From NCBI GenBank assembly GCA_001602645.1, contig LUYE01000022.1, positions 1-42,950 on the forward strand: a stretch of DNA of 42,950 nucleotides, in the 5' to 3' direction. Below the pieces are notes generated by a model. The model was not told the DNA's origin. It was given only the letters and a program-made list of their open reading frames with translations, and did no database searches. The position numbers were made by a program, and so were the translations under genes. This DNA is from Methanosarcinales archaeon Methan_01 (lineage in GTDB: Archaea; Halobacteriota; Methanosarcinia; Methanotrichales; Methanotrichaceae). This document shows positions 4,107 to 31,406 of this stretch, one piece after another. Every line of letters begins with the position of its first letter. The first letter of the stretch is position 1.

Positions 4107-4189
4107 GTAGTTATCTAAGCATATACGCATATATCAATTTTTGCACTTATACACTAACTATTTATATGATACGTGCATAAGTGTACATC
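4107..4189. promoter_or_regulatory. Divergent promoter with inverted repeat around a TATA box
   Basis: TGCACTTATACAC (4142-4154) and GTGCATAAGTGTA (4173-4185) are inverted copies matching at 11 of 13 positions. Between them lies ATTTATAT at about 4160-4167, which places a rightward transcription start close to ATG 4190. The spacer also feeds the leftward RHH gene. The layout fits an operator that would hide the TATA box when bound. Confidence 0.45.
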
Positions 4190-5350
4190 ATGCCTTGGGA
4201 TGAATCCACCAATCCAGAATATGGCAAGCGCCTTCTTCGAGGCCATCAGATGATTGAGAGAGGTATCGAGCCTAAGCAGTTGTCACAAAACAAGTTCGAA
4301 ATACCGTCCCAAAGCAAAGATTTAAATTATATAGTAACATCCTACGCCAACTCTTGGAACTGCACTTGCCCCGATTACCAATTCAGGCACGTTACCTGTA
4401 AGCATATTCACGCTGTCGTCTTATGGCAAAGGCTCTCCAAGAAGATCGAAAAAGACCACGAGGAGAGATCCGTATTCGACACTTCGCTAGATAACGGTAT
4501 TGCCTGCAAGTTCTGTGGGTCATCCCAGGTAATCAAGTACGGTAAGGCCAATAATAAGCAGGTCTACAAGTGCAAGTCGTGCGCGAGGAAATTTGTGCCG
4601 AACCAGGGATTTGAGGGGATGAAGTACGACCCGCGCGTCGTCACGACCACCCTAGACCTGTACTTCAAGGGCGTCTCTCTGCGAAAGATCGCAGATCACC
4701 TGAAACAGTGTTACAGCTTGGATATCGACCACAGCACCGTTTACCGTTGGATCGCGAAGTATACCGAGATCATTGAAGCCTACGTCGCGACGCTGGAGCC
4801 AGAGTTGGGCGACATCTGGCATACCGACGAGATGAAGATCAAGATAAGCGGTGAATGGCATTGGCTCTGGAACGTTATGGACGAGCGCACCAGGTTCCAC
4901 CTCGTCAGCGTCGTTACCAAGACTCGCGAGATACAGGACGCGAAAAGGGCTTTCAGGCAGTCTAAAAAGGTAGGCAACAAGAAGCCCAGGATCATGGTAA
5001 CTGATGGCCTCCAGTCTTACAAGAAGGCGTTTAACGCCGAATTCTATGACCATCACCAGTCTTGTAAGCACGTTGCGGACGTCGCGTTGCGCGAGAGCCT
5101 CAACAACGTCTTGGAAAGGATGAATGGTAGCATCAGGGAGAGGGAGAAAGTGATGAGGGGCATCAAGGTAGACGACACGCCCATCATCCCCATGAACCAG
5201 ATCTATTACAACTTCATCCGGCCACATATGGGGCTGGATGGAATTACGCCAGCAGAGATGGCTGGCGTGGGTATCGAGGGAGATAATAAATGGGATGGCC
5301 TATTGAGAAGAAGTCTAATAAAACCAACCGAAAGATTTATAAATAAATAG
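4190..5350 (+). CDS. SWIM zinc-finger IS6-like DDE transposase
   Basis: Start taken at ATG 4190 (MPWDESTNPEYGKR), which lies about 25 bases after the TATA box, so the mRNA may be leaderless; a GTG at 4181 would add three residues. Numbering from that GTG, a SWIM finger has C61, C63, C73 and H75 (CTCPDYQFRHVTCKHI). A zinc ribbon follows, with C109, C112, C131 and C134, then a helix-turn-helix (GVSLRKIADHLKQCY) and an IS6-type catalytic core: D216 (WHTDEMKI), D275 (MVTDGLQSY) and E312 (LNNVLERMNGSIRERE). The family cuts and pastes or co-integrates DNA. The core looks intact. No terminal repeats were recognised. The N-terminal SWIM part resembles that of the transposase at 1116 although the catalytic domains are of different families. 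Confidence 0.8.
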   Translation: MPWDESTNPEYGKRLLRGHQMIERGIEPKQLSQNKFEIPSQSKDLNYIVTSYANSWNCTCPDYQFRHVTCKHIHAVVLWQRLSKKIEKDHEERSVFDTSLDNGIACKFCGSSQVIKYGKANNKQVYKCKSCARKFVPNQGFEGMKYDPRVVTTTLDLYFKGVSLRKIADHLKQCYSLDIDHSTVYRWIAKYTEIIEAYVATLEPELGDIWHTDEMKIKISGEWHWLWNVMDERTRFHLVSVVTKTREIQDAKRAFRQSKKVGNKKPRIMVTDGLQSYKKAFNAEFYDHHQSCKHVADVALRESLNNVLERMNGSIREREKVMRGIKVDDTPIIPMNQIYYNFIRPHMGLDGITPAEMAGVGIEGDNKWDGLLRRSLIKPTERFINK

Positions 5351-30128: not shown

Positions 30129-30752
30129 ATAAAGACCGGATTGCAGAGGTCCATCAATAATCCGGGCGGGGGCTGCCAGTCGCGGGCCTCGCCCCGCCCA
30201 TCCTCCCAGCATGGTCGGTTGGAAGCTGGCGGGATCGAGTAGCTGTGCGGGAGAAGCGGCAGCGTCCTCCCCAAGCGGCCGGCCTGGGGATGGCTTCTTT
30301 CGCCTCAGGACCGTTGATACGTTTTTTTGGGCTGCGCCAATATTTGCTACCGTCCCGGCGGCATTTGTGATGATGGCTTATTCGAGCCAGATGGCCATGC
30401 CCCCGGCCTCGGATACGGCGCCGTTTATGTCCCGAGGGCGATCGATTGCACCATTATGGAGAAGTCAGCCAGAGGCGTGCGCGAGGGGCAGGCCCGGAAA
30501 AAGAGGCTCGGGTCCGGGGATGATCATCGCAATCGCCCCCAATCGTGGCCCCCGCGCGAGATCGCTAGTAACGCCGCCGCCGAAACCTATCCTATTAATA
30601 AATCATAAAAATTGGATTCTTTTAATACCCATTATTCGATTAAATGAGATTAAGTAAAATTAGTATGTCTGAATTTCCCCATCTCGGCTACGAAGATCTC
30701 CCTTTTCTCCCCACAAAATGCGTTATTTTTCCGGATATTGGTCACAAAAAGG
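30129..30752. other. Long intergenic stretch without a firm gene
   Basis: About 620 bases. One rightward frame (30327-30608) reads GCANICYRPGGICDDGLFEP and later GLGYGAVYVPRAIDC, which looks protein-like and may be a gene remnant, but it has no ribosome site and ends without recognisable domain. The final 150 bases are AT-rich and lead into the promoter of the His-rich peptide gene. GGGCGGGG/CCCCGCCC arms near 30164-30200 can form a hairpin behind the winged-helix gene. Confidence 0.35.
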
Positions 30753-30812
30753 ATTTTATAGGCGGAGCCAAGAGGAGGGTATAGTGCAGTATAGAATGAA
30801 GGAGGTGAGAAT
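30753..30812 (+). promoter_or_regulatory. TATA box and strong ribosome site of the His-rich peptide gene
   Basis: TTTTATAG (30753-30762, within GGATTTTATAGG) is an archaeal TATA candidate that would begin transcription near 30783. GGAGGTGA at about 30801-30808 is a near-perfect Shine-Dalgarno sequence 7 bases before ATG 30816. Confidence 0.6.
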
Positions 30813-30815
30813 CGA

Positions 30816-30941
30816 ATGTGTTGCCATACCGGAGATAAGCACATCCACGCCCACGACCACGACGGGAAGGTCCACACCCACGAGCACGTCCACGACGCCG
30901 ACCATCACAAGCACACCCACAAGTGCTGCCACAGCCACTAG
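30816..30941 (+). CDS. His/Cys-rich metal-binding peptide (41 aa)
   Basis: ATG 30816 follows a near-perfect GGAGGTGA at seven bases; the frame ends in TAG at 30939-30941. The 41 residues include 15 His and 4 Cys. It begins MCCHTGDKHIHAHDHDG, continues with repeated H-x-H steps (KVHTHEHVHDADHHKHTH) and ends KCCHSH, so a Cys-Cys pair sits near each end of a His-x-His ladder. Such composition binds Ni(II), Zn(II), Co(II) or Cu; compare the His-rich stretches of HypB, CooJ and Hpn, which are named as analogies, not homologues. Methanogens have a high nickel demand, so storage or buffering of nickel is a natural guess. There is no signal peptide. The excellent ribosome site and near-absence of non-ligand residues make a chance frame unlikely. 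Confidence 0.7.
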   Translation: MCCHTGDKHIHAHDHDGKVHTHEHVHDADHHKHTHKCCHSH

Positions 30942-31406
30942 GCTCTGGACCGGCGGCTCATATTCTGGCGAACGAAGCCCTGTACCCTTCTTTCGGGGAT
31001 CGGGTCTGCGGACCCGAGCCGCCAGGGCTGCCGTTCTTTAATTCTAGTAAAATTTTGTATTCATCACCGTCGAGTTCTTCCAGATTTCTCTCGCGACTCT
31101 CAGGGATCGGGTCATGAAAAAAACCTCAAACGCCTTCTTTCTATGAAGATCAGCTATCTTGAGGGAAATTATTAATAAGGATCCGATAAGAGTTTGATTA
31201 TAGATATATACAATACGTCCTAAGAACGCATTGACGAACTTTCCGGTGGCTCCAGAGGGGAGACGTCAGACAAATACAGGAATTATAAAAATATGTACTG
31301 GCATCTCTTCTCTCGAGAATCGAGGGAGATTTGATCTTGAATGTCGAGATCATCAATCTCAGATTTTTCTGCCAAGAAGTTATGAAGATGGGATGAGGTG
31401 GCTCAG
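30942..31406. other. Intergenic stretch before the SDR gene
   Basis: No gene is supported. On the minus strand NLEELDGDEYKILLELKNGS reads well (about 31028-31090) but has no start codon after an upstream stop, so it may be a fragment. AATTATAAAAATATG near 31281-31295 is a TATA candidate for the rightward SDR gene. Confidence 0.35.

Follow-up and report, generated by a model that had tools for sequence, protein, structure and literature searches.

A conserved His/Cys-rich microprotein gene of methanogens and Desulfobacca-type bacteria with a putative role in nickel or cobalt handling

Does an isolated frame of only 41 residues in an archaeal genome encode a protein and, if so, what might that protein do? 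The question arises in the DNA of Methanosarcinales archaeon Methan_01 analysed here (the window, 42,950 nucleotides), where a short frame translates as MCCHTGDKHIHAHDHDGKVHTHEHVHDADHHKHTHKCCHSH up to its stop codon (Table 1). An earlier note on this DNA had claimed 15 His and 4 Cys in 41 residues with Cys-Cys near both ends, and translation confirms it: the pairs occupy residues 2-3 and 37-38, and the His residues are interspersed with other residues in a His-x-His ladder, in which HH pairs are the longest run. The ribosome-binding site and the TATA candidate that the note had placed upstream are also found, and the BRE/TATA-like element is conserved in relatives of the genus. In the window and in its closest relatives, the gene has a winged-helix ORF on one side and a short-chain dehydrogenase gene on the other and stands by itself, with no adjoining metal gene; in the window this gap measures 1.27 kb. 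Downstream of the frame, a stem encloses smaller hairpins and is followed by a T-rich run. It is retained in the four genus members having the 41-aa form and is tentatively regarded as the transcript end, with weak thermodynamic support (z -1.35). No tRNA or Rfam match was found in the window. Beside the gene there is also a 148-aa ORF (30211-30657) with no Pfam match, and a similar ORF of 125 aa occupies the matching position in genome G005; the window ORF is probably spurious, a product of GC-rich DNA. Elsewhere in the window, a periplasmic binding protein of the metal-complex type (PF01497, 38244-39533), located 7.3 kb downstream of the microprotein gene, carries a Cys-rich insertion, CVKNCICPTPYGVSDQGCMNC. 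Two transposase-like ORFs (1116-2342 and 4181-5350) have, by eye, an N-terminal SWIM-like zinc-binding stretch (CTCPDF..CKH).

Table 1. Coordinates of the described features; positions refer to the window unless a locus (L) is given.
Feature	Position	Strand	Remarks
His/Cys-rich microprotein gene, 41 aa	30816-30941	+	MCCH...CCHSH; TAG stop included
Ribosome-binding site GGAGGTGA	30801-30808	+	7-base spacer to ATG
TATA box TTTTATAG	30754-30761	+	55-62 bases 5' of ATG; preceded by purine-rich AAAAAGGA
Codons M1-C2-C3-H4 of the microprotein	30816-30827	+	N-terminus, invariant in alignments
Codons C37-C38-H39 (C-terminal CCH)	30924-30932	+	conserved in alignments
Probable transcript end (tentative)	30977-31037	+	stem GCCCTG 30977-30982 / CAGGGC 31023-31028
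Winged-helix ORF, 72 aa, PF10771	ends 30128		flanks microprotein gene upstream
Short-chain dehydrogenase	starts near 31400		flanks microprotein gene downstream
Conserved 3' RNA of bacterial loci	L140:5953-6048 and 16 further loci		covariance model

A lack of conservation in close relatives, which the earlier note had named as a ground for refutation, was not observed: homologues are present in five of nine genomes in the genus search and in 28 of 50 genomes, representing five of 11 genera, in the family search. A search of 238 genomes of the class revealed no homologue beyond the archaeal family. Scanning of contigs uncovered the microprotein in a MAG of Methanospirillum hungatei and, in MAGs of Desulfobacca/Deltaproteobacteria, a form of 53 aa that contains one additional His segment. 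In the class of Methanospirillum, it is found in three of 232 genomes, complete chromosomes among them, and in the class of the Desulfobacca-type bacteria the 53-aa form is found in 16 of 29 genomes. No new lineages were added by samples of 395 genomes from the phylum of the latter class and 393 genomes from the archaeal phylum, and plasmids and viral contigs yielded no match. The hosts are acetate-eating methanogens and bacteria of the sulfate-reducing type. Thus, the microprotein is not specific to methanogens, the setting in which the earlier note had placed it. Its pattern is patchy across two domains, which suggests gene transfer. Five other loci from the contig scan (L094-L096, L100, L103) were excluded from the family because their His-rich segment is a loop or tail within a larger membrane protein.

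M1, C2 and H4 are invariant in one alignment (A2) and all of M1-C2-C3-H4 in another (A3), with rare N-terminal variants, CGH in L016 and CCQ in L154. The His ladder and the C-terminal CCH are invariant or nearly so, and the 38-aa and 53-aa forms end with CCH. In archaea and bacteria alike, the homologues are with few exceptions preceded by GGAGGTGA or a close variant of it, and nearly all archaeal copies have a TATA-like element 46-80 bases upstream. A common upstream operator, such as a NikR-like palindrome that would fit NikR-regulated expression as in Hpn and Hpn-2, was not found among the homologues. Some copies are decaying: L034 (G047:C46) has lost its start codon and contains an in-frame stop, and L153 (G482:C21) has AAG in place of ATG. 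In G009, one of two copies (L032:6635) has its N-terminus replaced or truncated.

Could the frame nevertheless be a chance ORF in low-complexity, GC-rich DNA that is never translated? It is short, repetitive and isolated in its gap, and the antisense strand is partly open as well. Nonetheless, the frame is conserved in two domains together with its ribosome-binding site and start codon, and its substitutions fall mainly at third codon positions of the sense frame. The pN/pS ratios in four homologue groups are 0.34, 0.18, 0.14 and 0.16, and in the 38-aa group all 15 invariant His/Cys columns display both synonymous codons. On the strength of the cross-domain conservation and the codon pattern, a chance origin was rejected and is considered practically negligible. 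Coding on the antisense strand was also rejected, given the stops in the minus frames and the preference of changes for third positions of the sense frame. The composition itself is exceptional: in 701 kb of related DNA, the mean His content of the 5,023 ORFs with a length of 30-80 aa is 2.9%, and all those with at least 25% His either bear CCH, that is, belong to the microprotein family, or represent a second His-rich ORF beside NikO. Judged by conservation and by selection acting on the protein, the 41-aa ORF is a genuine protein-coding gene under purifying selection, so the claim of an overlooked dedicated small gene holds.

Since the gene stands alone in the window, its link to nickel comes from relatives. 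At four Methanothrix loci (L032, L038, L051, L058), the peptide is encoded directly downstream of, and on the same strand as, a NikM-NikN(PDGLE)-CbiQ-CbiO operon, the identities being taken from NCBIfam/Pfam. Upstream neighbours comprise only NikMN at L037 and L062 and only NikO at L056, and a cobalt-type CbiM gene lies downstream of the peptide at L054 and L049. Eight of 32 archaeal loci are within 6 kb of CbiM/NikM, versus 0.43 expected when every CbiM gene in these genomes is counted (P 7e-9, with related genomes treated as independent). At about 70% of the archaeal loci, ECF Ni/Co genes are missing up to a distance of 6.5 kb, although the contigs are short for some of them. Some Methanothrix genomes carry, between NikO and the microprotein gene, a second small His-rich ORF, MTEKHEHEHKPEKMHEHEHEHE..., with neither Cys pairs nor a Pfam match (L058:8260-8442, L056:9026-9169, L040:2570-2683).

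The association recurs in bacteria, where six of 17 loci are within 6 kb of CbiM/NikM, versus 0.09 expected on the same basis (P 2e-10, relatives again counted as independent), and 13 of 16 stand-alone copies have ECF Ni/Co genes, CbiK or DUF4198 at a distance of no more than 6.5 kb. The peptide gene follows CbiM-NikL-like-CbiQ-CbiO-DUF4198 at L140 and L144, CbiM-CbiQ-CbiO at L146 and CbiQO at L142 and L143, and precedes a Ni/Co-transporter operon at L150. At six bacterial loci, it faces a gene for the cobaltochelatase CbiK, and a cobalamin riboswitch lies upstream of one of these CbiK genes (L101). CbiK and DUF4198 were assigned by family matches (PF06180 and PF10670, respectively). Nickel systems are marked by NikN and NikK/NikL and cobalt systems by CbiN (PMC2667541). 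We infer that DUF4198 corresponds to NikK and that a 122-aa ORF at L140, which has no Pfam match, corresponds to NikL. Adjacency to Ni/Co transporters, far more frequent than expected by chance, is observed in differing arrangements, and each domain reproduces the finding made in the other. One bacterial genome also encodes a 113-aa paralogue (L102:892-1233) in which a His-rich stretch of the family type is fused to an HMA domain (PF00403).

Nickel serves methanogens in F430/MCR and CODH/ACS, as cobalt does in corrinoids. To our knowledge, little is known of the route by which these organisms deliver the metal to the enzymes once the ECF importer has taken it up. With a probability of roughly two in three, we propose that the microprotein is expressed and is a cytoplasmic buffer or metallochaperone for Ni(II), possibly also Co(II), acting between importer and metal users. 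By composition, the 41-aa peptide very probably binds metal, and it is probably cytoplasmic because a signal sequence is absent. Once ECF (NikMNQO/CbiMQO/NikMLQO) or other ABC transporters had imported Ni(II), or possibly Co(II), the peptide would take up the metal, buffer it and release it to users, which in methanogens would be F430/MCR, CODH/ACS and corrinoid synthesis. Methionine aminopeptidase normally cleaves Met preceding Cys. We therefore propose that removal of Met1 would expose NH2-Cys-Cys-His, an X-X-His (ATCUN-type) terminal site with thiols and predicted tight binding; the His-x-His ladder would offer several weaker, exchangeable sites and the C-terminal Cys-Cys-His a second strong anchor. 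Albumin-like binding of Ni(II) and Cu(II) is described for ATCUN sites (PMC8704837). Nickel use does not require the gene, since many nickel-dependent relatives lack it: it is absent from 22 of the 50 genomes of the family, among them all six of genus g9. As for the metal, the gene neighbourhood in two domains points to Ni/Co as the best-supported candidates, which partly supports the nickel role envisaged in the earlier note, but nickel cannot be told apart from cobalt because NikMN and CbiM/CbiK neighbours both occur.

The same chemistry could serve general metal detoxification or, as in metallothioneins, buffering of zinc or copper, with the proximity to Ni/Co genes reflecting general metal islands. 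His and Cys are not metal-specific ligands, and such ladders bind Zn, Cu, Co and other metals. ZnuA-like proteins are encoded near L036, L037 and L057 and a CDF exporter near L054, and the fused paralogue carries an HMA domain. However, the neighbours that recur in both domains and in varied arrangements are of the Ni/Co type (NikMN, CbiM, CbiQO, CbiK), and the peptide has just four Cys, in pairs, versus the Cys-rich metallothioneins. Accordingly, we regard detoxification or zinc/copper buffering as rather unlikely, although it is the alternative to be taken most seriously.

A further conserved element accompanies the bacterial genes. Each stand-alone copy in bacteria is followed by a structured RNA of ~90 nt, which starts at the stop codon and consists of a 12-bp stem around the hairpins GCC-ACGAA-GGC and CCGG..CCGG, followed by a U-run. 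Its covariance model has 17 strong matches in 29 genomes, and each of them adjoins the 3' end of a peptide gene; 94.7% of the cells at paired positions are standard pairs, and the covariation exceeds that of 500 out of 500 shuffles and of all slid versions. No Rfam family matches this RNA. Archaeal copies have different, weaker 3' hairpins. A short ORF rich in His codons with RNA hairpins at its 3' side is reminiscent of a leader peptide, in which translation of the His (and Cys) codons would sense and control expression of a downstream gene, as in attenuation of the histidine operon. This explanation was rejected, a constant same-strand downstream operon being absent: the next genes vary and are often on the opposite strand. 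Furthermore, the His/Cys codons extend over the full length with both ends conserved, selection acts on the protein sequence while synonymous codons are free, and an HMA fusion exists in one paralogue. We consider a leader function very improbable. The bacterial RNA may simply be a dedicated terminator. More speculatively, it might control the microprotein, either as an element that responds to a metal or to corrinoids or as a small RNA of the 3' UTR, so that a new Ni/Co metallochaperone family transferred between methanogens and Desulfobacca-type bacteria would form, with this RNA, a protein-plus-RNA unit of metal control; taken as a whole, this scenario is doubtful.

The proposed buffer or metallochaperone would provide a candidate small metal carrier, encoded beside the importer in several lineages, absent from the family libraries searched and easily synthesised. 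No member of the family has a meaningful match in Pfam, NCBIfam or PDB, the sole Pfam hit (E 0.51) being noise, and no published description was found in the open-access literature searched. Small His/Cys nickel proteins as such are a known kind, exemplified by Hpn. The microprotein may work like Hpn of Helicobacter, to which it is likened by published description rather than by sequence. Hpn and Hpn-2 of gastric Helicobacter are, like the microprotein, small, extremely His-rich, linked to nickel and missed by annotation (PMC4671568, PMC8704837). Hpn contains -Cys-Cys- motifs, proposed to be functionally important (PMC4671568); in the microprotein such motifs are near-invariant at both ends. 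The X-X-His (ATCUN) N-terminus of Hpn-like (Hpn-2) is predicted for the microprotein after loss of Met, and Ni binding, measured for Hpn-like, is likewise a prediction here. Whereas His stretches are described for Hpn, the microprotein has a spaced His-x-His ladder without long His runs, up to four His in a row occurring only in some bacterial copies. The hosts also differ, gastric Helicobacter in one case, methanogens and Desulfobacca-type bacteria in the other.

Other known systems share single traits. A NikO-type ATPase (L051:8119-8949) ends in a His-rich tail, NLIHEHMHFHGKAVHEHLHAHKGEHLHQHKT, that is conserved across the family. It resembles the microprotein in its HEH.H.H spacing and nickel-transporter context and is often encoded just upstream of it; however, the tail is part of a large ATPase and has no Cys pairs. 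HspA (GroES) of Helicobacter pylori likewise has a His/Cys-rich C-terminal segment for nickel sequestration (PMC4671568), but as a domain of a chaperonin, whereas the microprotein is free. Bacterial metallothioneins are small, Cys-containing metal binders, as the microprotein is predicted to be, but they have a much higher Cys content and form curated families; with 4 Cys in 41 residues, the microprotein has neither Cys-dominated clusters nor a match to a curated family in Pfam or NCBIfam. Hpn is annotated in 11 out of 305 genomes of H. pylori (PMC4671568), and the microprotein illustrates how microproteins escape annotation, as Hpn did.
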